64,000 nt of DNA from a bacterium (GTDB taxonomy: Bacteria > Oederibacteriota > CAKKQC01), in the NCBI GenBank assembly GCA_919901855.1, contig CAKKQC010000021.1:124001-188000 (forward strand), in the 5' to 3' direction. A program made the translations under genes and the position numbers. Below, in pieces: positions 9,078 through 62,210 of the stretch. The notes beneath the pieces were generated by a model. That model searched no databases, was not told the origin of the DNA, and was given only the letters and a program-made list of their open reading frames with translations. Within the stretch, counting starts at the first letter, position 1. Each line of letters opens with the position of its first letter.

Positions 9078-10009
9078 CCGCGCGCTGGGCCGTGATCGCC
9101 GTCTCCGCCATGCTCGCGGCCGGACGGGTCGGGGCGGTGACGGCGGGGTCGGAAGAAGTCGTGGGGGCTGACAACGTGGCCGGGACGTTCCTCCTGCGTG
9201 GAGTCGGTGGGCGGGCGGCCGGGATGGGCGAAGCCTTCGGGGCGGTCGCCGACGACGCGTCGGCGGGCTCGTGGAATCCCGCGGGCCTCTCCCGCGTGGA
9301 CCGCGCGGGGGGCGTCCTGATGTACGATGCGGCGGGCGAAGGGCTCGGCCTCCGCTACGCGGCCGTGGGGGGGCCGGTCGGGGTCGGGAGCGCGTCCCTC
9401 AGCCTGACGGCCATGACGTACGGCGGCTTCGATGCCTTTGACGAGCAGGGCGTGCGGACCGGTTGGCGGAGTCCTGTCGACATTGGCGCGCTCGCGGGAT
9501 GGGGCTGGCGGCATCCCGCGTGGTTCGGGGACATGGGGGGGGTCGGGATTGCGGGGGAGTTCGTCTCCACGACGACCGCCAACCGGTTCCTCGGTCTGAG
9601 CGCGGGTGTCATCTACCAGCTGGCGCCCGGGACGGCCGTCGGGATGGCTGTCCAGCACGTGAGCACGCACAGCGACGGGTACGCCCTGCCTGGGCTCTTC
9701 CGGTTCAGTTGGACGTCCTCGCCGATGGCTCACCTCCGAGTCGCTGCGGACGGCGTCCAGGGCCTGGTGGATCGCGAGAGATGGATCTCGGGCGGCGCCG
9801 AGGCATTCCTGAGCCGGAAACTGGCACTGCGCGCGGGGTACAAGTGGTCGCCGGCCAATTCGGGGGTCAAGGGCCTGACCGGCGTCACGGCGGGCGTAGG
9901 GGTGCGGCTGCGCAACGTGGAGGTGGACTACGCGTACCAGCCGGTTGGGTACCTGACCACGAGTCACCGGCTGTCGCTTGGTTACCGCGCGCGGGGGGGG
10001 TCGGAATGA
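9074..10009 (+). CDS. PorV/PorQ-like outer-membrane beta-barrel protein
   Basis: 311 residues with a signal peptide (about 1-20). The segment RAAGMGEAFGAVADDASAG followed by WNPAGL is the hallmark N-terminus of PorV/PorQ/UPF0164-type barrels. The rest alternates beta strands rich in Gly and aromatic residues, consistent with an outer-membrane barrel. In Bacteroidota PorV shuttles cargo carrying a C-terminal Por domain to the surface. The ATGA overlap with the preceding gene, whose product ends in an FlgD/Por-like domain, suggests this is its dedicated partner (inference). ATG at 9074 was chosen over upstream in-frame starts because of the overlap and the signal peptide. Confidence 0.75.
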   Translation: MTARWAVIAVSAMLAAGRVGAVTAGSEEVVGADNVAGTFLLRGVGGRAAGMGEAFGAVADDASAGSWNPAGLSRVDRAGGVLMYDAAGEGLGLRYAAVGGPVGVGSASLSLTAMTYGGFDAFDEQGVRTGWRSPVDIGALAGWGWRHPAWFGDMGGVGIAGEFVSTTTANRFLGLSAGVIYQLAPGTAVGMAVQHVSTHSDGYALPGLFRFSWTSSPMAHLRVAADGVQGLVDRERWISGGAEAFLSRKLALRAGYKWSPANSGVKGLTGVTAGVGVRLRNVEVDYAYQPVGYLTTSHRLSLGYRARGGSE

Positions 10010-10920
10010 AGCGGCACCGGCTCGCGCTGGTCGGACTCGCCGCCGTTCTCGTCGGGGGGGCGGCGGCCGACGGTTGGGGGGCGGCGCGGGCGCCGGCCAC
10101 GATCATCCGCGCGACTGGTCTCGTGCGTCTGAGGTCGGCGGAGACTGCCGCGTGGACGCAGGTGGTCGCGCCCTTCCCGCTTCACTACGGAGACGAGCTG
10201 AAGACCATCAGCGGCAGGGCGACGGTCGAGTTCGCTGACGGCAGCCGCATTTATGTCAGCCGGCTGACGACCTTCAAGCTCGAGGTGCCGGACACCAGCC
10301 GGCAGAAGGGCGTCAGCCACCGGGTGATCCGCCTTGTGGCCGGGTTGATACGTTCAGTCGTCAAACCCCTGAAGTCTGGTGAATCCTACTACATGGTTTC
10401 GGCGGGGGCGATTGCGGCAATCAAGGGGACCGACTTTGCGTTCGACGGGACCAGCGTGATTGTGTTCGACGAGAACGATCCGGGGGTCGACCACGTGGTG
10501 GTGCTCTCGGACGCCCAGGGCGCGCACGGTGTCGAGGTGAGAGAGGGTCAAATGGCGACCGTCCACCCGGATGGGTCGGTGGGCAGGCCCGTCGAGGTTC
10601 CGCCGGACCGTGCCCGTGAACTCAAGGACGCGACCAGTGGGCCGGAGGCCCCCGCCGACACCGAAGGGTCCGCCAAAAGCCGCGAGGTGCTGTCCTTCAA
10701 GCCCGTGGTGCGCGAGGTCGTGGGTGCGCTAGCTGTCCCGAAGGGGGAACGCGGTCCGGTCGTCACCCTCACGCCGCGCGAGGCCGAGCGGGACCAATGG
10801 GGTGGAGCCGGGATGCAGGGCTACACGGGGCTGATGGATCGGGCGGCGGTGTCTGCCCGGGAAGCACCGTTGCCGCCCGCCCCGCCGCCGCCGGTCAACG
10901 GGTGCGAGGTGGCGCCATGA
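10006..10920 (+). CDS. exported FecR-domain protein
   Basis: 304 residues with an N-terminal signal peptide (MKRHRLALVGLAAVLVGG...). Residues about 55-190 form a FecR domain: GDELKTISGRATVEFADGS, then the SAGAIAAIKGTDFAF strand. The C-terminal third is Pro/Ala-rich and probably disordered. Periplasmic FecR domains scaffold envelope complexes or sense their state. No FecI sigma factor or TonB receptor lies nearby, so a structural role in the envelope module is more likely than iron signalling (inference). The start overlaps the previous stop as ATGA, and the stop overlaps the next start the same way. A second FecR protein lies at 55807. Confidence 0.75.
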   Translation: MKRHRLALVGLAAVLVGGAAADGWGAARAPATIIRATGLVRLRSAETAAWTQVVAPFPLHYGDELKTISGRATVEFADGSRIYVSRLTTFKLEVPDTSRQKGVSHRVIRLVAGLIRSVVKPLKSGESYYMVSAGAIAAIKGTDFAFDGTSVIVFDENDPGVDHVVVLSDAQGAHGVEVREGQMATVHPDGSVGRPVEVPPDRARELKDATSGPEAPADTEGSAKSREVLSFKPVVREVVGALAVPKGERGPVVTLTPREAERDQWGGAGMQGYTGLMDRAAVSAREAPLPPAPPPPVNGCEVAP

Positions 10921-12254
10921 CCTGTAAGCGGCGCCTCTTCGCCTTCATGATCCTCGCGACGGCTGGGGGATCAGCCGTCGCGGGGGCGAGCCCGATCCCG
11001 CTCGTGCCATTCCTGGACTTCTCCCAGGGGGTGAACAGCAACCCCGGCACGATCCCCGATGAGACGCCCACGGCCGCCCGTCCGCGGGCGGACACGTTCA
11101 CGCTCATTCAGCCCGGGGCGGGCCTTGGCCTCGTCAATGGTCCCGTGTTCAAGGCGGGACTCCGGTACCAGGCCGAGTGGGAGCGGTACGACCAGGTGCG
11201 CGAAGGCGACACGGTGTCGCACCATGCGATGGCACGAATGCGGTGGGGATCAGGAGCCACCAGCGCGAATGTGACGCTCGGATACTCGCACTTCGCGTTC
11301 CCGCGCATCCTGGGGGCCGACGATCAGCCGGTGCTCGACCATGATGCCGCGCGGATTGGGCTCGAGCTGATGACACCTCTTGCATCGGGCGATGGCCTGG
11401 GGGCCTTTCTCGAGGCGTCGGCTGAGGCGCGTTCGTATCCCCACTATCTGGTCGTCACGAACGGCGAGGCCCCCGGGGACCTGTCCAGGAGGTCTGACCG
11501 CACCGGTTGGGGAGCGATCGGGGTGTCCTTTTCGAAGGGCGACGCGGCGGGCATGCGAGTCGCGGCAGAAGCCGGCGACACCGTCGGCAACGGGCTGGCC
11601 AGCCAATCCGGCGAATGGGGTGATTTCTTCTCGTATCACGCCTTGGGCGCGCGGGTGTCTGGTTGGCGAACGTTTTCCCGCTGGCCGGTGCGACTGGAAG
11701 GCGTGGTGAGGTACCAGCGGCGGAGCTCCGTGGGCCGGATCGCAACGGATGAGGGCGACCTTGAACGCTCCGATCTCGCAAGCCTCGCCGGTTCGGCTAC
11801 GTGGTCTCTCGGCCGCGGCATTGGCCTGACCGCGGACCTGGGCGTGCTGCTGAACAAGTCAAATGATCCGCAGACGTCGTTCCGCGAAACCCGGTTTGCG
11901 GTGGGCCTCAGGCTGATGGATCTCCTGTTCGGCGAGGAGGCGGTCGTGGCGCCGCAGCAGGCGTCGACACCGTCCCTCGAAGAGTCGGAGGTCAACCGCC
12001 TCTACGACGAAGCGCGTGGCACGTACGACCGCGGTTCCTTCGCGCGATGCGTCTCGCTGACCGAGGACCTTCTGCGGTTGGTGCCGAACTTCTGGCAGGG
12101 CTGGTCGCTGCTCGGCAGCTCCCTCTACGCCGACGGCGACACGATCGAGGCGTACGATGCCTACCAGCGGTCGCTGGAACTGAATCCGGAGAACCCGGAA
12201 CTCAGGGAGTGGCTCTCCCGCGTGCGCTCTGCGACTCCTGCCGTAGCCCCCTGA
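10917..12254 (+). CDS. outer-membrane beta-barrel protein with C-terminal TPR
   Basis: 445 residues: signal peptide (about 1-23), a central region of alternating amphipathic strands (about 30-350) typical of an outer-membrane barrel, then two TPR-like helical hairpins (about 370-445, including WQGWSLLGSSLYADGDT and LNPENPELREWLSRV). A TPR attached to a barrel would face the periplasm and could dock the FecR protein (inference). It is the last gene of the four-gene module. No enzyme motif is visible, and I do not recognise a named family. Confidence 0.6.
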   Translation: MTCKRRLFAFMILATAGGSAVAGASPIPLVPFLDFSQGVNSNPGTIPDETPTAARPRADTFTLIQPGAGLGLVNGPVFKAGLRYQAEWERYDQVREGDTVSHHAMARMRWGSGATSANVTLGYSHFAFPRILGADDQPVLDHDAARIGLELMTPLASGDGLGAFLEASAEARSYPHYLVVTNGEAPGDLSRRSDRTGWGAIGVSFSKGDAAGMRVAAEAGDTVGNGLASQSGEWGDFFSYHALGARVSGWRTFSRWPVRLEGVVRYQRRSSVGRIATDEGDLERSDLASLAGSATWSLGRGIGLTADLGVLLNKSNDPQTSFRETRFAVGLRLMDLLFGEEAVVAPQQASTPSLEESEVNRLYDEARGTYDRGSFARCVSLTEDLLRLVPNFWQGWSLLGSSLYADGDTIEAYDAYQRSLELNPENPELREWLSRVRSATPAVAP

Positions 12255-12437: not shown

Positions 12438-12635
12438 GTGAAGATCACGACTCACGTGGACGAGAAGCTCCTCAAGGATGCCATGAAGGCGACGCGGGCC
12501 CGGACGCAACGCGATGTGATCGAGCGGGGCCTGCGGAATGTCCTCCAGGAGAGCAAGCACCGCGAATTAGCGAAGCGGCTCGGTAAGTTCCGGATCGCGT
12601 GGACACACGATGAGCTGATGCGCTCGCGCGCATGA
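12438..12635 (+). CDS. vapB: VapB-like antitoxin
   Basis: 65 residues starting at GTG with GGAGG 9 bases upstream. The N-terminus (MKITTHVDEKLLKDAMKAT) followed by a helix-turn-helix-like pair is a ribbon-helix-helix DNA-binding fold of the VapB type. The basic C-terminus would wrap the toxin. The stop overlaps the toxin start as ATGA, and a palindromic operator lies upstream. Confidence 0.8.
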   Translation: MKITTHVDEKLLKDAMKATRARTQRDVIERGLRNVLQESKHRELAKRLGKFRIAWTHDELMRSRA

Positions 12636-13039
12636 CCGCGGTCCGCCTTCTCGACACGTCTGTCTGGATTCGAGCGCTCGGCGCGCATGCCGTCCCGCGG
12701 GTGAGGGACCTGGTTCAGGGCATCGTCGAGCGGCATGAGGCGGCCACCTGCACACCCGTCGCGTTCGAGCTCCTGCGAGGGGTGCCGGATCCCGGAGAGT
12801 TCGACGAGCTGCTGGATTACCTCATGAACCTGAACAGCCTTCCCGTGGACTGGGTGGGGGCGGCCCGGTGGGCTGCGAGTCCGGCGATCCGGTCGCTCAA
12901 GGTAAAGTCCATGGATCTCGTGATCGCGCATACGGCGCTGGCAAACGGGGCCGTCCTCGTGCACGCGGACTCGGACTTCGACCGGTTGGCGCGTTCCGTA
13001 CAGCTCAAGGTGGAGAGTCTTGCGGGAGTGTCCAGGTGA
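12632..13039 (+). CDS. vapC: VapC-type PIN-domain ribonuclease toxin
   Basis: 135 residues, the normal VapC length. Begins MTAVRLLDTSVWIRAL with the first catalytic Asp in LLDTSVW. Further acidic residues lie in AFELLRG, KSMDLVIAHTA and HADSDFDRL, giving the full PIN metal-binding set. VapC toxins cleave structured RNA such as tRNA when freed from VapB. ATGA overlap with vapB gives translational coupling. Confidence 0.88.
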   Translation: MTAVRLLDTSVWIRALGAHAVPRVRDLVQGIVERHEAATCTPVAFELLRGVPDPGEFDELLDYLMNLNSLPVDWVGAARWAASPAIRSLKVKSMDLVIAHTALANGAVLVHADSDFDRLARSVQLKVESLAGVSR

Positions 13040-13945: not shown

Positions 13946-15442
13946 CTACTTCTTCGGCGCGGCGGGCTGGCCCCATGCGTGCTCGGGGCGGGCGAGGATG
14001 GCGTCGATGACGGCGTTGACCTTCGCGTTCCCCTTCGCGAGCTCCCGGGCCTCCGGGATGAGGTGGACGTAGAACCGGTCCGCGACCTCGTACATCCCGT
14101 GCCAGTGGGTGTAGTCCGGCGCCATCATGGAGGCGCCGTGGCGGGCCCGCCGCCCCTCGTGGTGCCATAGGTAGTACCAGGTCCACTCGATCGGCTCGTC
14201 GAATTCCGCGGGGGTCAGGAGCTTCGCCTCGCGCAGGGCGGCCATGATCTCCGACCCGGCCTTCGAGAACTTCTCGTTGAAAAGAACGATGAGGTCGTCG
14301 TACTGGCGGTAGAACCCGTCGATCCAGCCGGGCGAGTGGCAGTTCGAGCAGACTTCCCGCATCCGGTCCCGCTTCTGCTGCCAGGTGTCCACGATGAGCG
14401 CCTTGCGCTTGACCGGATCGGTCTCGGTCACGACCCGGTGCGCGGTGTCCGTGTCCATCGCCAGGCTCAGCGGTGGCCGGTTCGTCCACGAGATCCGCTC
14501 GCCGGGATCGTGCGTCACGCGGCCGTTGTTGTTCGCGTTCCCGGACATGTGGCAGGTCGCGCAGGTCGGGGCCTGGGTGTAGTCCTTGCCCAGCACCCAG
14601 CTCTTCGCGTCAAGGTGCATCTTCTCGCGCAGGTCCCGGAAGGCGACCCCGTGTTTGGACTCGTCGTAGATCTCCTTCTGCGGATGGTCCGGCCCGAGGT
14701 GGCACTTGCCGCAGTTCTCGGGCTGGCGCGCGCGCCGGGCCGAGAAGTCATGGCGGCTGTGGCACGCGGAGCAGGAGCCGCGGGAGCCGTCGAGGTTGAT
14801 CCGCCCGATCCCGGTGTTGGGCCACGTCGCGGAGTCGAACTTCGGCCGGCCGTCGTCGCCCCGGGCGAGACTCCTGAGCACGTCGGCGGCGGTGGGCCGC
14901 CCGTCGGGACCTGGCTTGAAGTCGTCCGCCGTCACCGTCTTGCCGTCGGTCGTGAGCAGGCCAACCTTGCCGCCGTGGCACTGGCGGCAGCCGCTCGAGA
15001 CGCTCGCCATGCCGTTGACCGACGTGATCTCCGGCCGGCCGGGGGTGGCGCTGTGCGGGTTGAAGGTTAGCCGCGCGCCCTCGACGATCTCGGCCAGCCG
15101 GTTGTCGAGCGAGGCCAGGATGTTACCGGCCGCGGCATGGTGGCTGGCTTCGAACTCCGCGGTCTCGCGGGCGTGGCACCGGGCGCAGTCGCGCGGTGTC
15201 ACGATCGTGGCGATGGTCCCGCCGTTGTGCTCGAATGCGTCGGGCTCTCCCGCCGAGGCCGCGTGGCAGGCCAGGCAGCCCACCCTGGCCTTCGCGTGCC
15301 CGCTTGCCTTCCACTGCTCGATGATGCCGGGGGTCGCGACCGCATGGCACTCGACGCAGGCCTGCGACGGGTCGGGGTTCTTGGCGGCGCAAGCCGGATG
15401 GACGAGGAGTATGGACAGGACGGCGAGTGCGGTGCGGTTCAT
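13946..15442 (-). CDS. octahaem c-type cytochrome, hydroxylamine oxidoreductase (HAO)-like
   Basis: 498 residues with a Sec signal peptide (MNRTALAVLSILLVHPACA). It carries eight CxxCH haem motifs: CVECH, CLACH, CARCH, CRQCH, CSACH, CGKCH, CATCH and CSNCH. The C-terminal region has LWHHEGRRARHG and PDYTHWHGMYE, a signature of the HAO family of periplasmic octahaem enzymes. Members either oxidise hydroxylamine/hydrazine or reduce nitrite/hydroxylamine; whether the Tyr cross-link of the oxidative type is present cannot be judged here. ATG at 15442 was chosen because a TAGAAT -10 lies 7 bases upstream and the signal peptide begins there. No NapC/NrfH-type quinol partner is adjacent. Confidence 0.9.
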   Translation of the reverse strand: MNRTALAVLSILLVHPACAAKNPDPSQACVECHAVATPGIIEQWKASGHAKARVGCLACHAASAGEPDAFEHNGGTIATIVTPRDCARCHARETAEFEASHHAAAGNILASLDNRLAEIVEGARLTFNPHSATPGRPEITSVNGMASVSSGCRQCHGGKVGLLTTDGKTVTADDFKPGPDGRPTAADVLRSLARGDDGRPKFDSATWPNTGIGRINLDGSRGSCSACHSRHDFSARRARQPENCGKCHLGPDHPQKEIYDESKHGVAFRDLREKMHLDAKSWVLGKDYTQAPTCATCHMSGNANNNGRVTHDPGERISWTNRPPLSLAMDTDTAHRVVTETDPVKRKALIVDTWQQKRDRMREVCSNCHSPGWIDGFYRQYDDLIVLFNEKFSKAGSEIMAALREAKLLTPAEFDEPIEWTWYYLWHHEGRRARHGASMMAPDYTHWHGMYEVADRFYVHLIPEARELAKGNAKVNAVIDAILARPEHAWGQPAAPKK

Positions 15443-52703: not shown

Positions 52704-53978
52704 GTGCCGGCCACGCTCGTCGTCGGCGCCCAGTGGGGCGATGAGGGCAAGGGCAAGGTCATCGACGTCCTGACCGCGGAGGCCGACGTCGTAGTCCGCT
52801 ACCAGGGGGGCTCCAACGCCGGGCACACGGTCGTGGTCGGGGCGGAGACGTACGTCCTGCACCTGATCCCCTCCGGCATGCTCTACCCGGGCAAGATGAA
52901 CGTAATCGGCAACGGGGTCGTCGTGGACCCCGCCCGGCTCGTGGAGGAGATCGACACGTTCAAGGCCCGCGGGATCGACGTCGAGTCGAGGCTCCTGCTG
53001 AGCGACCTCGCGCACGTGACCCTGCCGTACCACAAGCGGCTGGACGAGGCGCGGGAGGCCAAGCGGGGCTCGGACAAGATCGGGACCACCCACCAGGGCA
53101 TCGGCCCGACGTACTCGGACAAGTACGGGCGCGTCGGGATCAAGGTGGGCGACCTGGCCGACGAGGCGGATTTCACGGAGAAGGTGCGGCGGAACCTCGA
53201 GGAGAAGAACGCCTTCTTCCGCGAGTACTACCACGCCCCGGAGATGTCCATGGAGGAGGTCCTCGGTCCCTACCGGGCCTACTGGCCCCGGCTCAAGGGG
53301 CTCGTCCGAAACACGATTCCGTACCTGCGCGACGAGCTCAAGGCGGGGAAGAGGATCCTGCTGGAGGGGGCCCAGGGCACGCTCCTGGACGTCGATTTCG
53401 GGACCTACCCCTACGTGTCCGCTTCGCACCCGACCGCCGGGGGCTCTTCGGCGGGGTCGGGCATTCCGCCCCGGGCCATCGTCCGGGTGGTCGGGGTCGT
53501 CAAGGCTTACACGACGCGGGTGGGCGCGGGGCCCCTGCCCACGGAGCTGCCGGCCGAGGAGCAGGAGCGCCTGCGGATGGTCGGGCGCGAATACGGGGCG
53601 ACGACGGGCCGGGCGCGTCGTTGCGGCTGGTTCGATGCCGTGGTGGTGCGCCGCGCCGTGGACGTGAACGGGTTGACCGAGGTGGCGGTGACGAAGCTCG
53701 ACATCCTGGACCATCTCGACGAGGTGCCCGTCTGCGTCGCGTACCGGTACCGGGGTCAGGAACTGACCGAGTTTCCGACCCGGACCGAGGTCGTGGCGGA
53801 GTGCGAGCCCGTCTACCGGATGCTCCCGGGCTGGAAATCCCCGACAAGCGGGATCCGGCGCTGGGCGGACCTGCCCGCCAACGCGAAGGGGTACATCGAG
53901 ACCCTGCAGTCGCTCATGGGGGTTACGGTCTCGATCGTGTCGATCGGCCCCCGCCGCGACGAAATCATTCGCGTGTGA
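52704..53978 (+). CDS. purA: adenylosuccinate synthetase
   Basis: 424 residues from a GTG 2 bases after the serA stop. VVGAQWGDEGKGKVIDVL is the GTP/IMP loop, YQGGSNAGHTVV the catalytic His, KIGTTHQGIGPTYSDK the substrate loop. It joins IMP and aspartate toward AMP. Last gene of its run; a terminator follows. Confidence 0.98.
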   Translation: MPATLVVGAQWGDEGKGKVIDVLTAEADVVVRYQGGSNAGHTVVVGAETYVLHLIPSGMLYPGKMNVIGNGVVVDPARLVEEIDTFKARGIDVESRLLLSDLAHVTLPYHKRLDEAREAKRGSDKIGTTHQGIGPTYSDKYGRVGIKVGDLADEADFTEKVRRNLEEKNAFFREYYHAPEMSMEEVLGPYRAYWPRLKGLVRNTIPYLRDELKAGKRILLEGAQGTLLDVDFGTYPYVSASHPTAGGSSAGSGIPPRAIVRVVGVVKAYTTRVGAGPLPTELPAEEQERLRMVGREYGATTGRARRCGWFDAVVVRRAVDVNGLTEVAVTKLDILDHLDEVPVCVAYRYRGQELTEFPTRTEVVAECEPVYRMLPGWKSPTSGIRRWADLPANAKGYIETLQSLMGVTVSIVSIGPRRDEIIRV

Positions 53979-54167: not shown

Positions 54168-54617
54168 ATGAAATATGCAGCGTATCTGGCATCAGCCATG
54201 ATGCTTACGGCCACGATGGCCGGTTGCGGCCCCAAGTCGGTCGCGCTCAACAACGGCGAACTGCGCTCGACCATCGACGCGCCCACGCAGAGCGGGGACT
54301 TCATCGAGGCGATGGGGATCGGCGCGGCCGACCCGGCGCTTCCGACGGCTACCCAGCGCAAGGCCACGTCCCGGAACGCGGCAATCGTGGATGCCCAGTA
54401 CCAGCTTGTCGCGAAACTCAAGGGCGTCACGATCGAGGGCGGCATCACGATCGAGAAGGCCATGGAAACGAGCTCGAAGATCACGGCGTCCGTCAACAAC
54501 ATGGTCAAGGGCGCCGAGGTGACCAAGATCGAGTGGACGAACGACGACGGGTGCGTCGTCACGGTCCGCATCAACAAGAAGGCCGTGGAGCAGGAGCTGG
54601 GGGTTCGCCTGAAGTGA
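54168..54617 (+). CDS. LPP20-like outer-membrane lipoprotein
   Basis: 149 residues. The lipobox LTATMAGC (Cys20) ends the signal peptide. DFIEAMGIGAADPALPTATQRKATSRNAA and a following amphipathic region resemble the LPP20/FlgT-N family of small envelope lipoproteins. AAGGAGGAACAG precedes the ATG. It opens the module and its stop (TGA) overlaps the next ATG by one base. Confidence 0.7.
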   Translation: MKYAAYLASAMMLTATMAGCGPKSVALNNGELRSTIDAPTQSGDFIEAMGIGAADPALPTATQRKATSRNAAIVDAQYQLVAKLKGVTIEGGITIEKAMETSSKITASVNNMVKGAEVTKIEWTNDDGCVVTVRINKKAVEQELGVRLK

Positions 54618-55810
54618 TGAAGCTCCGCGTGGCGGCGCTTGCCGCCGCGACCGTATCCGTGTTCCTCCTGGCGGGCTGCGGAGGGGCGCCTGCGCGCCCC
54701 TCCCAGACCGCGGAGGCACCGGGGGAAGATGTCGTTACCGTCGAGGCGGAAGGCTCGGCGAACGTCATTCCCGGCAACAAGCTGAACACCCACGACCAGG
54801 CCCTCGCGATGGCCCAGCGCAACGCGGTCGAGAAGGCCGTGGGGGTGCTGGTCACCGGCCAGATGGTCGTGTCCCAGGCCAGGCTCATCGAGGACCAGGT
54901 TTTCGCCAAGTCCGCGGGGTACCTCAAGGCGTGGGACATCGTGTCGGAGGCGGAGACGGACGGGCTTTATACCGTCAAGATCCGCGCGAAGGTCAAGTTC
55001 GGGGACGTTCGGAAGGACCTGGACGGGCTGGGGTTGCTGATCAGGACGAAGAAGGTCGGGAACCCGCGGGTCATGGTCCTGATTGACGAGACTGTGGATG
55101 GAAACAAGTCGGAGAGCCGGACGGTGGAGACGGGGCTCGTGAAGGCCCTCCTGGACGCAGGCTACAAGGTAGTGGACCTCGAGCAACTCGCCGAGATCCG
55201 GTCGCAGGAGCAGGCGGTCCGGGCGATCGGCGGGGACGCGGCGGCGGCGGCGGACCTGGGAAAGCGGTTTGGCGCCGAAATCGCGCTGGTGGGGACCGTG
55301 AAGACCGCCAAGCTGACCGGCGCGGACGAGGCGGCGATGGCCGGGATGCTGACCTACCGCGGCCGGCTGAACCTCAAGGCGGTCAAGACGTCGTCGGGGC
55401 AGGTGGTGCTGGCGGATTCCCGCGAAGGGTCCGGCATGGACCTCCTGGCCGAGAGCGCCTCGATCCGGTGCCTGGCGAATCTGGCCGAGGCGTCGGGGAC
55501 GGAGATGGCGCAGAAGCTGGCGCCCGCGCTCTGGGAAGGCGCCGAGGTCCAGCTCGCGCTTTCCGGGATCAGGGATTTCGCCATGTTGCAGACGATCGTG
55601 GCCGCCCTGAAGGCGGCTGACGGGGTCCGGAACGTGACGGTCCGGAGTTTTGCGGCCGGGGCGGCGGTGTATGACATCGACCTGGCCGGGGGCAACGCGC
55701 AGACGCTGGCGGCCCAGCTCGAGGGCAGGCGGAAGCCGCCGATGGACATCAAAGAGGTGGCCGCGTACCGCATCGAAGCGGTGCTGACGGCGGAAGGGAC
55801 GCAACCGTGA
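54617..55810 (+). CDS. exported lipoprotein with FlgT/CsgG-like domains
   Basis: 397 residues, lipobox FLLAGC (Cys near 22). Residues about 50-140 (ALAMAQRNAVEKAVGVLV) resemble FlgT-N/LPP20. Residues about 145-270, with GNPRVMVLIDETVDGNKSE, ALLDAGYKVVDLEQLAEI and FGAEIALVGTVKTAKL, resemble the FlgT/CsgG-type periplasmic fold. The C-terminal 100 residues repeat the pattern seen at the end of the 55807 protein. Its role is unknown; it is predicted periplasmic and outer-membrane anchored. It is coupled to both neighbours by overlaps. Confidence 0.65.
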   Translation: MKLRVAALAAATVSVFLLAGCGGAPARPSQTAEAPGEDVVTVEAEGSANVIPGNKLNTHDQALAMAQRNAVEKAVGVLVTGQMVVSQARLIEDQVFAKSAGYLKAWDIVSEAETDGLYTVKIRAKVKFGDVRKDLDGLGLLIRTKKVGNPRVMVLIDETVDGNKSESRTVETGLVKALLDAGYKVVDLEQLAEIRSQEQAVRAIGGDAAAAADLGKRFGAEIALVGTVKTAKLTGADEAAMAGMLTYRGRLNLKAVKTSSGQVVLADSREGSGMDLLAESASIRCLANLAEASGTEMAQKLAPALWEGAEVQLALSGIRDFAMLQTIVAALKAADGVRNVTVRSFAAGAAVYDIDLAGGNAQTLAAQLEGRRKPPMDIKEVAAYRIEAVLTAEGTQP

Positions 55811-57354
55811 GCAAGGCAATGATCGTGGGCGGATGGACGAGGATGGCGGCCGTGGTGGCCCGGCGGGTCGGCCTGGGGGGCCTCGTGCTGTGCGCGATGA
55901 TGGCGGCCGGAATGGCCGGGAGCGCGGACAGCTACAAGGCCACGGTGACCTTCCTGAAAGGGATGGCCCGGCACCAGGGCAAGGGCGGCGCGATCGCGAA
56001 CGTGACGCTGGGGCAGGCCCTGCTCGAAGGCGAGACGATCCTGACCCTCCAGAACACGAAGTGCGAGCTCAAGCTCGAGAACGGGACGGTCATCCGGCTC
56101 GGACCCTCGACCAAGTTCACGCTGGCGACGCTGCAACGTACGCCCATGGGCGGGGTCAAGGGCGTCTTCAAGGTCGTGTCCGGCCGCCTCTGGTTCACGG
56201 TCGCGAAGCTCACGGGCGATTCCGAGATGACCACGCAGACGCCCAGCGTCGTCGCGGCCGTGAAGGGGACCGTCTACCGCGTGGATGCGGCCGCGGACGG
56301 CAAGACCGACCTGGCCGTCTACGACGGCGTGGTCGCGGCGAGCCAGCCGGGGCAGGCGCCCGTCGACGTGCACCCGATGGAGCAGCTCGCGGCGATGCCG
56401 AACTCGGCGTTCGAGCGCGGCACGGTCGACGAATCCCAGGACGACAAGGACGACTGGATCAAGTGGAACAAGAACCGCGACAAGCTCCGGGTCATGATCA
56501 TCATCCCCGAGAAGCACGGGGAAGAGCGCGTGAGCTCGTCCGTGTCCGAGAACGCGGCGATGAAGCGGTTCCTGAACAACTACCTGTTCAAGCTCGTGGA
56601 GAAGGACCAGGCCGACAAGATCCGGGACGGCGAGAAGCTGAAGGCGGCCCTCAAGGGCGATACCGCCGCCGCTGCGGCGGCCGGGCTCGAGGTCGCGGCG
56701 GACCTGATCATCGTGGGCGAGGCGCGGGCGAGCTACTTCAAGAGCCCCGTCCTCGGCGGGCTCATCTCCGCCACGGCGAACCTGACCGGGCGCGCGGTGC
56801 GCGCCGACACGGCGGAAGTGATCGCGGCCCTGCCGGGGCTCTCGACCCGGGCCGTGGACATCACGGACGAGTCGGCGGCGTCGAAGGCGCTCATGGCCGC
56901 GGGCGAGAAGATGGCGAGCGAGTTCATCGACTCGATCATCGCGGGCTGGAAGCGCGACGCCCGGAAGGGCACGGGCCTCAACGTGATCGTCGACGGCGTC
57001 GACTACAAGAAGCTCAAGATCCTGACGAACGTGCTCGCCGGGATCGAGGGCGTCCGGGACGTGCAGTCCCTGTACCTCGTCGGCCGCCGGTCGCTCCTGA
57101 GCATCACGTTCGCGGGCGATTCGACGGGGCTCGCGGACCGCATCGAGGCCGCGAACTTCGCGCCGCTCAAGGTCGGCGTCGTCGGGCTCTCGGCCTACAA
57201 GCTCGAGCTCGAGGTGACCGGCGGAGGGGCCATGGCGCCCGCGCCGGCGCCGGCGGCTGCCTCCCCAAAAGCCGAAGCCGGCGCTGAGGAGTCGGCCCCG
57301 GAGGGAGCCGCTCCCCAGGCGCCGGTGACTCCGGCCGCGACCCCGGCGCAGTAA
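55807..57354 (+). CDS. exported FecR-domain protein fused to FlgT-like domains
   Basis: 515 residues from a GTG overlapping the previous stop as GTGA. A signal segment (about 15-42) precedes a FecR domain (about 60-200: LGQALLEGETILTLQNTKC, RLGPSTKFTLATL, SVVAAVKGTVYRVDAA). Residues about 230-470 resemble the FlgT/CsgG-like region of the preceding gene, and the last 40 residues are Ala/Pro-rich. It combines the FecR scaffold of the 10006 gene with the partner domain of 54617. Role unknown; likely periplasmic. Confidence 0.65.
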   Translation: MSKAMIVGGWTRMAAVVARRVGLGGLVLCAMMAAGMAGSADSYKATVTFLKGMARHQGKGGAIANVTLGQALLEGETILTLQNTKCELKLENGTVIRLGPSTKFTLATLQRTPMGGVKGVFKVVSGRLWFTVAKLTGDSEMTTQTPSVVAAVKGTVYRVDAAADGKTDLAVYDGVVAASQPGQAPVDVHPMEQLAAMPNSAFERGTVDESQDDKDDWIKWNKNRDKLRVMIIIPEKHGEERVSSSVSENAAMKRFLNNYLFKLVEKDQADKIRDGEKLKAALKGDTAAAAAAGLEVAADLIIVGEARASYFKSPVLGGLISATANLTGRAVRADTAEVIAALPGLSTRAVDITDESAASKALMAAGEKMASEFIDSIIAGWKRDARKGTGLNVIVDGVDYKKLKILTNVLAGIEGVRDVQSLYLVGRRSLLSITFAGDSTGLADRIEAANFAPLKVGVVGLSAYKLELEVTGGGAMAPAPAPAAASPKAEAGAEESAPEGAAPQAPVTPAATPAQ

Positions 57355-57363
57355 GATTTCGCG

Positions 57364-57369
57364 TATGAT
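57364..57369 (+). promoter_or_regulatory. -10 box of the exported propeller gene
   Basis: TATGAT, 7 bases before the ATG at 57377. It supports that start over the ATG at 57365 and suggests an internal promoter within the second envelope module. Confidence 0.5.
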
Positions 57370-57376
57370 GTATCGC

Positions 57377-58831
57377 ATGCGAACGATCGTCCTCCTGTGT
57401 TCCTTGATCGCTGCTTCGTGGGCCGCGGCCATGCCGCAGCCTTCCGGGTCGGCGGGGGCGTATGCGTACCCGACCCCACCCAGCTTCGGGAAATGCGTCG
57501 CGAGCTACACTGACGGGAGTTTCTTCGTGGCGGGATCGGTCGGGGGATGCGGCGGCAGCGACTTCTTCGTTCAGCGCCACGATGTGCCGCTGACCCAGAC
57601 GCGGTGGTCCAACGTGTATGACGCCACCTGCATGGACAACGTGCCCCGGGGAGCCGCGACCTTCGGCGACATCGCCTACGTGGCCGGCGGGGTGACGGGG
57701 GGGCAGTATCTCGCCCGGATCGGCGCGGACGGGTCGCGGGTCTGGACGGTCGTTCCCAACATGACATACGTATGCGACGTGGCGGTGGCTTCCGATGACG
57801 GCTCGATCTGGGTGGTGGGGTACGACAGCGGTCCGCCGATGTCGGCCGTGGTCATCCAGTACCGGGACAACGGGTCGGGGGTGACCCAGCTCGGGCGCAA
57901 CGCCTACCGCTTCCAGGATTCCTACGATACGCAGGCCTTCGCGGTGGCCGTTGCCGCGGATGCCGCGTACATCGGCGGGGCGGTATTGGCCGCCTCGATC
58001 CCGAGTCCCTGGGTCATGGCCGTCAACCGGACCGGCGGTGTAGTTCGTTTCTCCCAGCGGACCACGGATACCGTGAGCCGGTCCTGGATCGCCCGGCTGG
58101 TGGCGGGACAGGGGCGGGTGTTCGGATTGCACCTGCGCGACAACGGCAGCGGCCTGCCCCTCTCCGGCCGGGTGGCCGCGATCGACACCTCGAACGGCAC
58201 GTACTCCGAGAGCGCGGACGTGTTCAACGGGATGGGGATGACGACCTTCAGCGACTTTCCCTGCGGGATCGCGATGCATCCGACTCTCCCGATCCTGATT
58301 ACGGGAGGCGTCGGCACGATCCGCGTCCATAACTTCGGACTCGAGGGGCTCTGGAGCGTCGGGGACGTCAGCGCGGGCGGGACTGGCCCCGTTGTCGGCG
58401 GGGTCGCGATCAGCAACCGGCTGGACTACACCGTCGCGGTCGCCTACACCACCGGGTTCGCGGCGACCGAGATCGCCCATCTGGACGGGTACGCGTTCAC
58501 GCAGGACCTGACCCAGGTGGCCGGCACGAGCAACCTCGTCGCCGCCCCCAACCTCATGGACCTGGCGGAGGCCGGCTCGTTCATCCGGTTCATCGTGAAG
58601 CCGCTCAAGGCGACGAAAGAGACCAAGATCGAGGTCTTCGACCGCGCGGGTAACCTGTTCTGGTCCAAGGTCGTGGCCCTCGAGGGGGCGGGCAACACGG
58701 AATACGTGTGGGACGGTTTCTCAGTGGCCAAGCGCCGGATCGGGCCGGGCGGTTACGTCGCCATCCTGACGGGAAGCGGGTCGAACAGCTCCGACCGCGC
58801 GCCGTTCGTCGTGACGGGGAAGTCCAAGTGA
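57377..58831 (+). CDS. exported beta-propeller-like protein with FlgD-like C-terminal domain
   Basis: 484 residues with a signal peptide (MRTIVLLCSLIAASWAAA). Residues about 30-390 repeat short beta strands with AVASDDGSIWVVGYDS-type units, like delta-60/propeller proteins. The C-terminal 95 residues (PNLMDLAEAGSFIRF, KIEVFDRAGNLFWSK, GPGGYVAILTG) are an FlgD-Ig-like domain, comparable to the tail of the 2637 protein. Its stop overlaps the PorV-CsgG-like gene as GTGA, repeating the cargo-barrel pairing of the first module. Confidence 0.65.
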   Translation: MRTIVLLCSLIAASWAAAMPQPSGSAGAYAYPTPPSFGKCVASYTDGSFFVAGSVGGCGGSDFFVQRHDVPLTQTRWSNVYDATCMDNVPRGAATFGDIAYVAGGVTGGQYLARIGADGSRVWTVVPNMTYVCDVAVASDDGSIWVVGYDSGPPMSAVVIQYRDNGSGVTQLGRNAYRFQDSYDTQAFAVAVAADAAYIGGAVLAASIPSPWVMAVNRTGGVVRFSQRTTDTVSRSWIARLVAGQGRVFGLHLRDNGSGLPLSGRVAAIDTSNGTYSESADVFNGMGMTTFSDFPCGIAMHPTLPILITGGVGTIRVHNFGLEGLWSVGDVSAGGTGPVVGGVAISNRLDYTVAVAYTTGFAATEIAHLDGYAFTQDLTQVAGTSNLVAAPNLMDLAEAGSFIRFIVKPLKATKETKIEVFDRAGNLFWSKVVALEGAGNTEYVWDGFSVAKRRIGPGGYVAILTGSGSNSSDRAPFVVTGKSK

Positions 58832-60249
58832 CGGCGCGCCGCCGTCTCCTCCCGGCCGCGGCGGCCGCCCTGGGGCTCGCCGCCTCGACCGCGGGCGCCT
58901 TGGGGCTGCCGCTGGTCGACCAGCCGGGGGCGATCGAGCTCAGCATGCCGGTCAGCGTCCGCCAGTATGGGATGAGCGGGGTGTCGGGGCTCGGCGGCGA
59001 CGTGCTCCGGGCCTGGAGCAACCCCGCCCTGCTCGGGCTCATGAGCTCCCGGGGAGAAGGCGCCCTCGTCGGGGGGAAGATCCTGGGGGACACGAACCTG
59101 TTCGCCGTCGGGGGGGCGTGGCAGCTCACCCCCGACTGGACGGTCGGGCTCATGATGGCGCGCTACGGTCTCAGCCTCGACGGCGTGAACGAGTTTGGCG
59201 ATCCCTCGGGCGAGCCTCTGGACCAGTCCAGCGCTGGCACCGGACTGCTGGCCGCGTACCGGTGGCGGTGGCTGCGCGCGGGGATCGCGGTCCGGCTCGT
59301 CGACGTGAGCATCCTCAAGTACCACGCGTCCGGCATGGCGGCCGACCTTGGGCTCCAGGCTTCCTGGGCGGGCGCGGTGGCCGGCGTGGCCATCCGCAAC
59401 GCCGGCGCGGCTCTCGGGGCGGCGGACACCGCGGCCGGGATCGCGGGCGTGATGATGCCGACCGAGATCCGCGCCGGGCTGGGCTACCGCCACGAGCCGG
59501 CGAGGCTCGCGGGCGGGCTCGAGTTCTCGAAGGTGACCGACCGGGACGCCCGGATCGGGCTGGGTGTCGAGTACTGGGCCGCGACGTTTCTGGCCCTCCG
59601 CGCCGGCTGGGGACCCGGGGATTCCGGCGAGATCACGATGGGGTTGTCGGCGCTCTGGCAGCGCCTGGGCCTCGACTACGGTCTCGCTGTCCACGCGGCG
59701 GGCATGAACCACCGGCTGGCGCTGTCCTGCCGCTTCGGCGAGGCCCTCGTGGCGCCGGCGCCTGGCGCGGCCGAGGAAACCCCGGCGGCCCGGGCGGAAG
59801 AGCCCGTCGCGGCGGCCGCGCCCGTTCCCGCGCCCGCCAAGGGCGCCAAGCAGCTCAACCTCGCGGTCGCGGACCTGCGCGCCGAGAACGTGTCCGCGGG
59901 GAACTCGGCCGTCATCGCCGACCTGCTGCGCGGCGAGCTCGTGAAGACGCACGCGTTCAACGTGATCGAGAAGGCCAACATGGACAAGGTCCTCGCCGAG
60001 CAGGCGTTCCAGCAGACCGGGTGCAGCTCCGAGGAGTGCGCGGTCAAGCTCGGCAAGCTGCTCAACGTCCAGCGCATGGTGGTCGGGAGCTTCGGCCAGC
60101 TTCTCGATTCCTACTTCCTCAACGTCCGCGTCGTGGACGTCGAGACCGGGCGGGTGGTCTTCGGGGATTCCGCCGAGGGGAAGACCGTCGCTGACCTCAA
60201 GGTCGGAGTGCGCGACCTTGCCAAGCGGATGGCCGTCCAGATACGATAG
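58828..60249 (+). CDS. PorV-like outer-membrane barrel fused to a CsgG/LpoB-like domain
   Basis: 473 residues from a GTG overlapping the previous stop. A signal peptide (about 1-25) is followed by a barrel region (about 30-315) with QYGMSGVSGLGGDVLRAWSNPALLGL, the PorV-type NPA turn. An Ala/Pro-rich linker (about 315-345) leads to a C-terminal domain (about 347-473) with KQLNLAVADLRAENVSAG, VIEKANMDKVLAEQAFQQTG and RMVVGSFGQLLDSYFLNVRV, resembling CsgG/LpoB-type periplasmic domains. The fused domain probably faces the periplasm and could recruit the FlgT-like lipoproteins (inference). A family for the complete architecture is not known to me. Confidence 0.7.
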   Translation: MTARRRLLPAAAAALGLAASTAGALGLPLVDQPGAIELSMPVSVRQYGMSGVSGLGGDVLRAWSNPALLGLMSSRGEGALVGGKILGDTNLFAVGGAWQLTPDWTVGLMMARYGLSLDGVNEFGDPSGEPLDQSSAGTGLLAAYRWRWLRAGIAVRLVDVSILKYHASGMAADLGLQASWAGAVAGVAIRNAGAALGAADTAAGIAGVMMPTEIRAGLGYRHEPARLAGGLEFSKVTDRDARIGLGVEYWAATFLALRAGWGPGDSGEITMGLSALWQRLGLDYGLAVHAAGMNHRLALSCRFGEALVAPAPGAAEETPAARAEEPVAAAAPVPAPAKGAKQLNLAVADLRAENVSAGNSAVIADLLRGELVKTHAFNVIEKANMDKVLAEQAFQQTGCSSEECAVKLGKLLNVQRMVVGSFGQLLDSYFLNVRVVDVETGRVVFGDSAEGKTVADLKVGVRDLAKRMAVQIR

Positions 60250-60256
60250 AGGCCTG

Positions 60257-61672
60257 ATGAACAAACTCCTTCCGCTCGCGGTTTTTCTCGCTTTCTTCCT
60301 GCCCGGCTCCGGCCGGGCCGCTTCCAACCGCCCCACGATGAAGGTCGGGAAGGTCGCCCCCGCGTTCATGTGCCCCCAGCTCGGAGTGGCGGGCACCGGG
60401 AAGGGCAGCGTGGTCACCCTCAAGGACCTCCTCGCGAAGGACCAGGTTGTGGTCATGAGCTTCTTCCATACGCAGTGCGTTCCGTGCAAGAAGGAGATTC
60501 CGAAGCTCACCAAGATCGTGGCGGGCCGGGCGGGCGTCGCGACCTACTGCGTCTTCGTGGGCGGCGAGGACGAGGACTCGGTGCGCGCCTTCCTGAAGGA
60601 GTACGGGTTCACGCTCCCCGTGCTCATGGACCGGAACGGTTACCGCATCGGGGAGCGCTACAAGGTCGTCCAGGACGAGATTGCACACGTGCCCCAGATC
60701 ATGGTGATCAGCAAGAACGGGGTGCTCAAGGCGGCGTGGACCGGGTTTCCCGACGAGCGCGAGGCCCAGTTGGCCTCCCTGCTCGACGAGCTCGTCGCCG
60801 AGGCGAAGGCGGCGCCGGTGGTCGCGGACACCCTGACGATCCTGTTCACGAACAACACGAACGGCCTCACGGGTCCCGCGCCCGCGATCGACATGGGTGG
60901 GCTGGCCAAGCGCATGACGCTGATCAGGCGCGAGCGCGCGGCGGCGCCGGCGTCGATCCTGGTCGAGGGCGGGGACTTCTTCCCGACGTCCCCCGACGAG
61001 GCTAGGACCCGCAAGGTCGTGGCGGCGTACAGGCTCATGGGCTACGACGCGGTCACGATAGGCGAGGCCGAGTTCGTCAACGGGCTCAAATTCCTGCGCG
61101 GGCTCGTCGACGGCAAGGGCCTGCCCTGGGTGTCGGCCAACGTCAAGATCTGCGAGAAGGAGGTCTGCATCGACCTCGCGCGCGGCAGCATCCTGCTTAA
61201 CGCCGGCAAGCGCAAGGTCGCCGTGATCGGGTACATGCATCCGGACGCCGTCGGATTCACCCCCGAGGAGCGTTTCAAGGACGGGGGGCACTACATCAAG
61301 TTCACGGACCCCCGTCCGCTGATCAGGGGCTTCGTGGAACGCTACCGCAAGGACGCGGATCTCCTGGTCGTGCTGTCCCACGCGGGCGTCGAGGAGGACC
61401 GCCGGCTGGCGGCGGAGGTCCCCGGGCTCGACGTGATCGTGGGGGCGCACTCGCAGACCTTCCTGACCGATCCGGGGCGCGAGGCCGGCACGATCATCGT
61501 GCAGGCGGCCGCGGACGGGCAGTACCTGGGCAAGCTGGTGCTCAAGTTCGGCGAGAACGGAAAGCCCGCGATCGAGTCCTACGAGTTGATGCCGCTCACG
61601 AGGAACGTTCCGGACGATCCGGATGTGGCGGCTGCCGTCGCGGCGGGGTCCAAACCCCCAAAAGCGGAGTAG
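60257..61672 (+). CDS. thioredoxin-like (TlpA) domain fused to a degenerate 5'-nucleotidase-type metallophosphatase
   Basis: 471 residues with a signal peptide (about 1-22). Residues about 30-190 are a TlpA/AhpC-TSA domain with the redox motif HTQCVPCKK and VPQIMVISKNG. Residues about 195-455 follow the UshA/SoxB fold (VEGGDFFP, SANVKI, VLSHAG, IVGAHSQTF) but lack key residues: HTNDxHG reads FTNNTNG and GNHEF reads GEAEF. The metal site is probably non-functional, leaving a binding or scaffolding role (inference). The gene starts 7 bases after the barrel gene and is likely co-transcribed. Confidence 0.8.
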   Translation: MNKLLPLAVFLAFFLPGSGRAASNRPTMKVGKVAPAFMCPQLGVAGTGKGSVVTLKDLLAKDQVVVMSFFHTQCVPCKKEIPKLTKIVAGRAGVATYCVFVGGEDEDSVRAFLKEYGFTLPVLMDRNGYRIGERYKVVQDEIAHVPQIMVISKNGVLKAAWTGFPDEREAQLASLLDELVAEAKAAPVVADTLTILFTNNTNGLTGPAPAIDMGGLAKRMTLIRRERAAAPASILVEGGDFFPTSPDEARTRKVVAAYRLMGYDAVTIGEAEFVNGLKFLRGLVDGKGLPWVSANVKICEKEVCIDLARGSILLNAGKRKVAVIGYMHPDAVGFTPEERFKDGGHYIKFTDPRPLIRGFVERYRKDADLLVVLSHAGVEEDRRLAAEVPGLDVIVGAHSQTFLTDPGREAGTIIVQAAADGQYLGKLVLKFGENGKPAIESYELMPLTRNVPDDPDVAAAVAAGSKPPKAE

Positions 61673-61724: not shown

Positions 61725-62210
61725 ATGACCGACACCGGATCGCGCCCGGCCCGCATCAAGGGCTGGATCGCCGTCGCGGGCCCCGGCGCCCGGGACAAGG
61801 ACCGCCGGTTCCTGGGCGGCCTGATCGAGCTGTCGAAGACGGGCGCCCGGCTCTACCTGACGTGGAAGCCGCGCATCGGCGACCACCTCTCGTTCGGACT
61901 CCGGATTCCCGGAAGCCCCAAGCCGCAGCGGATGCCGCTCAAGGTGGTCCGCGTGACCGCCGACGAGCCGGGGCGGATGGACACCTTCGAGGCCCGGCTC
62001 CAGCTCCTGCGCGAGATGGTTCAGTGGGGCATTCCGTCGAAGGGGATGACCTACGGATTCGCCGTGGGCGCCCGCTGGGAGGCTGGGGCGAGCCCCGAGG
62101 GTATCCGGTTCATCCAGCGCCACTTCGAGGACGAGGGCGGCAGAGTGCAGAAACAGGTGCTCATCACCTTCGAGCCCTCCGACGAACCGGCCGTCCTGCC
62201 GCAGCTCTAG
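61725..62210 (+). CDS. PilZ-like domain protein
   Basis: 161 residues, AGAAGGAAGG before the ATG. RFLGGLIELSKTGARLYL resembles the PilZ (D/N)xSxxG turn after an Arg pair, with Glu at the first position; a beta-barrel region continues to about residue 85. PilZ domains bind cyclic di-GMP, and a diguanylate cyclase lies at 29262. Because the motif is imperfect, c-di-GMP binding is uncertain. Confidence 0.5.
   Translation: MTDTGSRPARIKGWIAVAGPGARDKDRRFLGGLIELSKTGARLYLTWKPRIGDHLSFGLRIPGSPKPQRMPLKVVRVTADEPGRMDTFEARLQLLREMVQWGIPSKGMTYGFAVGARWEAGASPEGIRFIQRHFEDEGGRVQKQVLITFEPSDEPAVLPQL

Follow-up and report, generated by a model that had tools for sequence, protein, structure and literature searches.

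The genes described here lie in a 64,000-nucleotide stretch of DNA (the window) from a bacterium of the phylum Oederibacteriota, corresponding to positions 124001-188000 of contig CAKKQC010000021.1 (C21) in a genome of 4.68 Mb in 91 contigs. Five co-directional genes, g1 to g5, occupy window positions 54168-60249 on the plus strand; their open reading frames contain no internal stops and all five are real. They encode two lipoproteins (g1 and g2), an exported protein with a FecR domain (g3), an exported propeller protein that we regard as a cargo of secretion (g4) and a PorV-type outer-membrane barrel (g5). A first-pass annotation of this DNA had the genes joined by overlaps, which is correct for g1/g2 (1 bp, TGATG), g2/g3 (4 bp) and g4/g5 (4 bp), the sole non-overlapping junction of the four being a 10-bp gap between g3 and g4. 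A further gene, g6 (60257-61672, plus strand), fell outside the span then considered. As it starts only 7 bp after g5, and adjoins g5 also in a sister genus, the operon probably comprises six genes. The order of all six is kept in that sister genus (genome G001, locus L059), which argues that their grouping is more than chance. No operon-specific terminator or promoter was found; there was one promoter-like match, and shuffled sequences gave about as many.

The first two genes encode lipoproteins with similarity to flagellar-ring components. The g1 product (54168-54617; 149 amino acids, lipobox MAGC) matches Pfam LPP20 below the cut-off (E = 0.019), and a 10-member profile (A4) matches solved FlgP structures: 9hmf_C (5.3e-9), Vibrio FlgP 8z5n_2 (1.8e-4) and 9yds (7.6e-4). 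By these matches g1 is classed as FlgP-like, not as flagellar FlgP itself. The g2 product (54617-55810; 397 amino acids, lipobox LAGC) combines FlgT_N/FlgP-like sequence with a CsgG-like region. Its matches to FlgT_N (9.5e-4, 20.1 bits against a cut-off of 28.8) and CsgG (9e-4, 19.0 bits against 20.8) are both under threshold, and one orthologue from a Firestonebacteria genome exceeds the CsgG cut-off with 21.6 bits. It is also related to the Leptospira lipoprotein LipL46 (9.6e-19, 67.3 bits, short of the 400-bit equivalog cut-off of NF033164).

The g3 product (55807-57354; 515 amino acids) has a hydrophobic N-terminus with no lipobox, and three domains: a FecR domain (residues 77-176; 5.1e-11, 43.3 bits against a cut-off of 24), a domain at residues 225-380 and a C-terminal domain in common with g2. 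In the predicted structure residues 225-380 adopt a CsgG/TolB_N/FlgT-middle fold that aligns with FlgT (3w1e, Z 12.3); the mean predicted local distance difference test score (pLDDT) of the model is 61, higher in the domains discussed. Over its FecR part g3 resembles Lsa33 and LipL45 of Leptospira (50-59 bits), although these scores and that of g2 with LipL46 are far under the family cut-offs (350-420 bits) and g3, unlike the leptospiral proteins, has no lipobox. Sequence searches of the PDB with g3 (A1) or g5 gave chance-level matches only. Neither a FecI sigma factor nor a TonB receptor was recognised beside g3, in the operon by Pfam or among the immediate neighbours by reading their sequences.

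The g4 product (57365-58831; 488 amino acids) likewise has a hydrophobic N-terminus and no lipobox. Its body is a predicted beta-propeller, with CylK as best Foldseek match (1.8e-12) and a further match to YncE (template-modelling score 0.68 on the target); the mean pLDDT of the model is 57, better in the propeller and poor (below 50) in the tail. This tail (residues 394-488; 58544-58828) is an immunoglobulin (Ig)-like domain of secretion type, of a class that we call 'APNxLD'. Pfam places both its FlgD_ig (0.002) and its CHU_C match under the cut-off, and a leave-one-out profile built from the genome's own tails recovers it at 2.2e-15. Directly downstream, g5 (58828-60249; 473 amino acids, GTG start) encodes the PorV-type barrel fused to a CsgG domain. 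The barrel scores 45.1 bits (9.6e-12) with PorV_fam, against a curated NF033709 cut-off of 90, and is thus rated PorV-like only, outside the PorV/PorQ family cut-off, which more than 12 other barrels of the genome exceed. The predicted periplasmic CsgG domain (residues 343-473; 59854-60246) carries a C-x4-C motif and is well over threshold (1.6e-10, 41.1 bits against 20.8); the same domain also matches TolB_N, LpoB and DUF3280. Since g5 has no lipobox, and its CsgG domain follows a barrel, it is not a free-standing CsgG lipoprotein. The domains that the first-pass annotation had named in g1 to g5 are right in substance: several matches lie under curated cut-offs, and FlgP structures, fold or the own-tail profile confirm them by other means. 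The last gene, g6, encodes a 471-residue protein with a TlpA/AhpC-TSA-like thioredoxin domain (CxxC) and a UshA/SoxB-like phosphoesterase domain, a fusion that looks unusual and is kept in the sister genus.

A second set of related genes, module 1, lies elsewhere in the window on the plus strand. It consists of a cargo with Kelch, NHL and DUF11 domains (2637-9077), an unfused PorV-type barrel (9074-10009; PorV_fam 6e-24, 85.2 bits against 90), a FecR-domain protein (10006-10920; 23.6 bits against 24) and a second protein, a putative barrel with TPR (10917-12254). The module 1 cargo tail has no Pfam match, and the profile of the genome's own tails detects it (5.7e-13). The two modules differ in class, module 1 having a 'WAPGVYL' tail ('WAPG' class) with a plain barrel and module 2 (the g1-g6 operon) an 'APNxLD' tail with a PorV-CsgG barrel. 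It had been proposed that cargo, barrel and FecR form a recurring core, and that two occurrences in 64 kb make the association functional. Of the domain assignments behind this proposal, which hold for module 1 as well, FecR is over the threshold in module 2 and just under it in module 1, and both PorV scores fall short of 90 bits. The argument from two occurrences does not hold: the genome has ~59 PorV-type proteins, which corresponds to ~0.8 per 64 kb, so that two in one window are unremarkable.

The cargo-barrel part of the proposed core stands on other evidence, in that further such units exist, 47 in this genome and others at Firestonebacteria loci. The genome holds 71 FlgD_ig matches, 21 CsgG matches and eight FecR loci (12 domains) besides its PorV-type proteins. 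By Pfam alone a FlgD tail lies directly upstream of 27 barrels, where 0.2 are expected. A same-strand upstream gene no more than 300 bp away exists for 54 barrels; 47 of the 54 neighbours end in a secretion-type tail, compared with 16 of 324 control genes of the same stretches; the junctions mostly overlap or nearly touch. Distances between tails and distances between barrels are correlated (Mantel r = 0.69 over the 47 pairs, with a maximum of 0.17 in 10,000 permutations), and remain so after removal of near-duplicates (r = 0.66, 43 pairs). The 13 tails of the 'APNxLD' class (APNxLD...GVYW.VA.GGGV), that of module 2 among them, all go with a single barrel cluster (13 of 13). A tailed cargo directly upstream of a PorV-type barrel is thus a recurring, non-random unit, and cargo and barrel stay together as pairs.

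Eleven paralogous barrels of the genome carry a C-terminal CsgG-like domain of ~130 residues; ten were found as CsgG matches and one (C38_133829), which has only a weak DUF3280 match in Pfam, was added from its sequence. Mean identity is 52% among the CsgG domains and 34% among the barrel parts. All 11 domains have the C-x4-C motif. One of them is attached to a barrel of another class (C34_49378), so the domain seems able to move between barrels. In FadL-family barrels the two ends both lie on the periplasmic side, and C-terminal extensions of these barrels are therefore probably periplasmic. Other PorV-type barrels end in TPR (L080, L088 and L096 by Pfam, L107 and L120 by eye), in fn3 (L084, weak, and L085) or in an OmpA domain of the peptidoglycan-binding type (L100:5959-8313 and L094:3008-5038, the latter with FlgD_ig between barrel and OmpA).

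Comparison with the sister genus divides the operon into two parts. Identities are high for g1 (74%), g2 (69%), g3 (72%), the CsgG domain of g5 (81%) and g6 (66%), and low for the g5 barrel (40%) and g4 (32%), so the predicted periplasmic side is constant and the outer side variable. The only cysteines that g5 shares with its sister-genus orthologue are those of C-x4-C. In g1, Cys129 is the only cysteine outside the lipobox, and it is invariant in the 11 orthologues examined.

Named relatives of g3, which were found with an alignment-based search (a single-sequence search of genome contigs gave none), occur in records labelled Candidatus Coatesbacteria (JAHFSL010000038, 72% identity) and Candidatus Firestonebacteria (33-43%). 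The phylum of the window also includes G001, which is of the same family and has the operon complete, and the Firestonebacteria genomes with matches. Among 40 genomes, full-length g3 relatives are present in the window's own genome, in G001 and in nine genomes of families f3 and f12. At seven of the nine loci in these two families, g1 and g2 are followed by a protein of 80-84 amino acids, two cargos (~535-560 amino acids) and a PorV/FadL-type barrel (285-293 amino acids); the exceptions are L131, which ends inside cargo 1, and L132, which has other genes there. Genes beyond the window were predicted with a simple script on fetched stretches, so their start codons may be off. The Firestonebacteria cargos match Por_Secre_tail (PF18962), one of four scanned being over the cut-off (L134 cargo 1, 29.4 bits against 27). 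In several of these genomes g3 lies within ~10 kb of purA, CsgG and CHASE2-adenylate cyclase genes, and a separate CsgG protein with C-x4-C is found near g3. The window's family has the g1-g2 and g3 groups together, beside purA. The 80-84 residue protein (L131-L139, for example L134:5767-6018; the called start gives 103 residues in L138 and 67 in L133) belongs to no Pfam family, and has by eye a slight FlgM likeness that Pfam does not support.

Taken together, these features suggest that the operon probably serves surface display: type IX secretion would bring a propeller protein to the outside of the cell, where an outer-membrane carrier of its own would retain it. The genome contains an SprA-like translocon gene (C23:70116-73514), which reaches 204.8 bits with TIGR04189 together with its neighbours (cut-off 200), and SprA-like matches, mostly under the cut-off, occur in 36 of 40 genomes of the phylum. 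From the tail, the barrel and SprA, as recognised by sequence, we infer that g4 would enter the periplasm by its signal peptide and cross the outer membrane via the SprA-like translocon, with the Ig-like tail as signal. The barrel domain of g5, the next gene downstream, would then receive it as a PorV-family carrier dedicated to it, as the genome-wide pairing and the co-divergence of tails and barrels indicate. Conservation and fold suggest that this carrier may be held from the periplasm, its CsgG domain docking on a conserved scaffold in the envelope that is built from the lipoproteins g1 (FlgP-like) and g2 (FlgT-like); g3, with its FecR domain and FlgT fold, would be another component of the scaffold or one that faces the wall. 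We assign this explanation as a whole (SprA export, a dedicated carrier and anchoring on a g1-g3 scaffold) a probability of roughly 55%. More speculatively, the invariant g1 cysteine, the C-x4-C motif as the sole common cysteines of g5 and the CxxC of g6 raise the idea of a disulfide between g5 and g1, with the thioredoxin-like g6 as a helper. In a wider version, which we regard as tentative and rather doubtful, an outer-membrane lipoprotein scaffold of FlgP/FlgT type, such as flagellar rings have, would have been adopted by a type IX system, and some 11 PorV-CsgG carriers, each with its own cargo, would dock on it via their CsgG domains, perhaps by a disulfide between C-x4-C and the g1 cysteine.

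Several observations weigh against this explanation. Duplication of whole pairs as units would give the same correlation between tails and barrels, so co-divergence may reflect such duplication and is by itself no proof of specific binding. In module 2 neither the tail (Pfam) nor the PorV match (NCBIfam) reaches the curated cut-off, and the g3 and g4 structure models are of moderate confidence. Models for GldM and PorN/GldN gave no match in 21 genomes, with control genomes equally silent; the genomes are incomplete, and absence of GldM, GldN or FlgI is to be read as failure to detect. The Firestonebacteria g1-g2-cargo-barrel locus has no FecR, g3 being encoded at another locus, and its barrels lack a CsgG domain, which also counts against the disulfide between g1 and g5, although the separate CsgG protein near g3 in these genomes does carry C-x4-C.

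A different reading joins FecR, PorV-type barrel and FlgD-tailed cargo in a functional triad, for instance a FecR-based signalling or anchoring device. FecR genes do adjoin cargo-barrel pairs twice in the window, and the 11 of 40 genomes that encode the g3-type FecR-FlgT protein are exactly those that encode the g2-type lipoprotein; these 11 belong to related families, so that the agreement does not represent 11 independent events, and in nine of them the two genes are at different loci, the FecR-FlgT gene being near purA. Because of this shared distribution a link between the FecR-FlgT protein and the lipoproteins is plausible. It does not extend to barrels in general, as FecR lies within 5 kb of a barrel at two of eight loci where 1.03 are expected by chance (P = 0.27), and the 45 other cargo-barrel pairs have no FecR within 5 kb. 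On this genome-wide count, and given the LPP20-FlgT-cargo-PorV locus of Firestonebacteria with no FecR, FecR was rejected as part of the core and we consider the triad unlikely. The same 45 of 47 pairs with no FecR suit the idea that this cargo and barrel are just one more pair of a genome-wide set, next to lipoproteins that do unrelated envelope work. Full relatives of g1-g3 were not found at the other ten PorV-CsgG loci by tblastn (one 76-residue match at L114, E = 0.007), and gene order outside the operon is also kept between the Firestonebacteria families, which weakens the comparison of loci. Against such hitch-hiking, g1-g2 adjoin a cargo-barrel unit in three families, with outer neighbours that differ between the window's family and Firestonebacteria; we hold it to be possible, and clearly short of probable.

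The resemblance of g1 to solved FlgP of the Campylobacter and Vibrio type, together with the FlgT_N and FlgP-like sequence of g2 and the FlgO/CsgG-like matches, could instead point to a flagellar accessory cluster forming an H-ring or basal disk. The H-ring of Vibrio is formed by FlgO, FlgP and FlgT (PMC7990780), the middle domain of g3 is FlgT-like by fold, and the flagellar P-ring gene FlgI is present in the window's genome and in G001. FlgI is, however, not matched in any of the nine Firestonebacteria genomes with the set, no flagellar gene adjoining g1-g2 was found at the loci examined, and the genes that are linked to it encode cargo and barrels. The H-ring was accordingly rejected for the Firestonebacteria loci, provided that no assembly gap accounts for the missing FlgI, and a flagellar role of the cluster is very unlikely. 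Equally, the CsgG matches of g2 and g5 and the CsgG fold in g3 might suggest curli-like (type VIII) export, with the CsgG folds as an oligomeric pore secreting g4 and the barrel as a fused accessory. But g5 is no lipoprotein, and the further matches of its domain to TolB_N, LpoB and DUF3280 fit a fold that TolB, LpoB, PelC and FlgT use as a scaffold. A folded propeller is moreover a poor curli-type substrate, and we think this explanation highly improbable.

Export through SprA with a dedicated carrier is best compared with the type IX systems of Bacteroidota, where type A cargo is reported to use one common PorV and type B cargo of Flavobacterium johnsoniae has dedicated carriers encoded directly downstream (PMC12618676). 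As in the PorP/SprF-type B pairs (SprB-SprF, PG1035-PorP-PorE), a cargo is here encoded upstream of its own FadL-family barrel, and there are many paralogous pairs. The periplasmic side of the barrel is likewise linked to TPR/OmpA or lipoprotein parts, and the periplasmic part of SprF has a cysteine pair: a twin-cysteine motif provides the disulfide that locks SprF onto the lipoprotein GldK (PMC12635249). In Porphyromonas gingivalis, PorE (TPR, OmpA-like), PorP and cargo form a complex with PG1035 as cargo (PMC9143113), and some barrels of the present genome carry TPR or OmpA domains themselves. The present pairs differ in having PorV/PorQ-like barrels, Ig-like tails (FlgD/CHU_C/Por_Secre_tail type) and periplasmic parts fused to the barrel, and in coming from an organism outside Bacteroidota. 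With the PorV/type A system they share PorV_fam matches, an Ig-like C-terminal signal and an SprA-like translocon in the genome, but the numbers (~59 PorV-type proteins, 47 tail-barrel pairs) and the CsgG, TPR, OmpA or fn3 extensions on some barrels set them apart. The H-ring, for its part, differs from the g1-g3 set in its flagellar linkage.

Carrier-cargo pairs are known for type B cargo, whereas the literature search turned up no PorV-like carriers dedicated to Ig-like tails in this number, outside Bacteroidota and with periplasmic domains fused to them; among open-licence papers none reports a genome with many PorV-type carriers, or a fusion of PorV with CsgG. The present sequences suggest that outside Bacteroidota Ig-like tails, too, have carriers of their own. 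The 47 co-diverging pairs are a natural set for reading a tail-carrier recognition code, and the fusions with CsgG, TPR and OmpA domains suggest a way for a carrier to act as anchor at the same time. With this locus one can also ask directly whether ring proteins of FlgP/FlgT type have a role in envelopes with no flagella.

Several neighbouring or related features were recorded. The purA gene (52704-53978, plus strand), a conserved neighbour outside the system, precedes g1; in other families, likewise, purA is linked with the gene for the FecR-FlgT protein. At L040:9095-14098, close to the FecR-FlgT gene, genes for a CsgG protein, a CHASE2-adenylate cyclase and a TPR-like protein form a row with purA, with a similar order at L043, L044 and L045, and one Firestonebacteria genome (G036) has two tandem diverged FecR-FlgT copies (L040:887-3752). 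Four FecR domains stand in a row in neighbouring large open reading frames at G000:C1:189575-193681 (L053), with no PorV-type gene near. Directly downstream of g6 a PilZ-domain protein is encoded at 61725-62210. Just downstream of module 1 lies a VapB antitoxin and PIN-domain toxin pair (12438-13039), and an exported multihaem cytochrome with several CxxCH motifs is encoded on the minus strand at 13946-15442 (Multi-haem_cyto, 9.4e-22).

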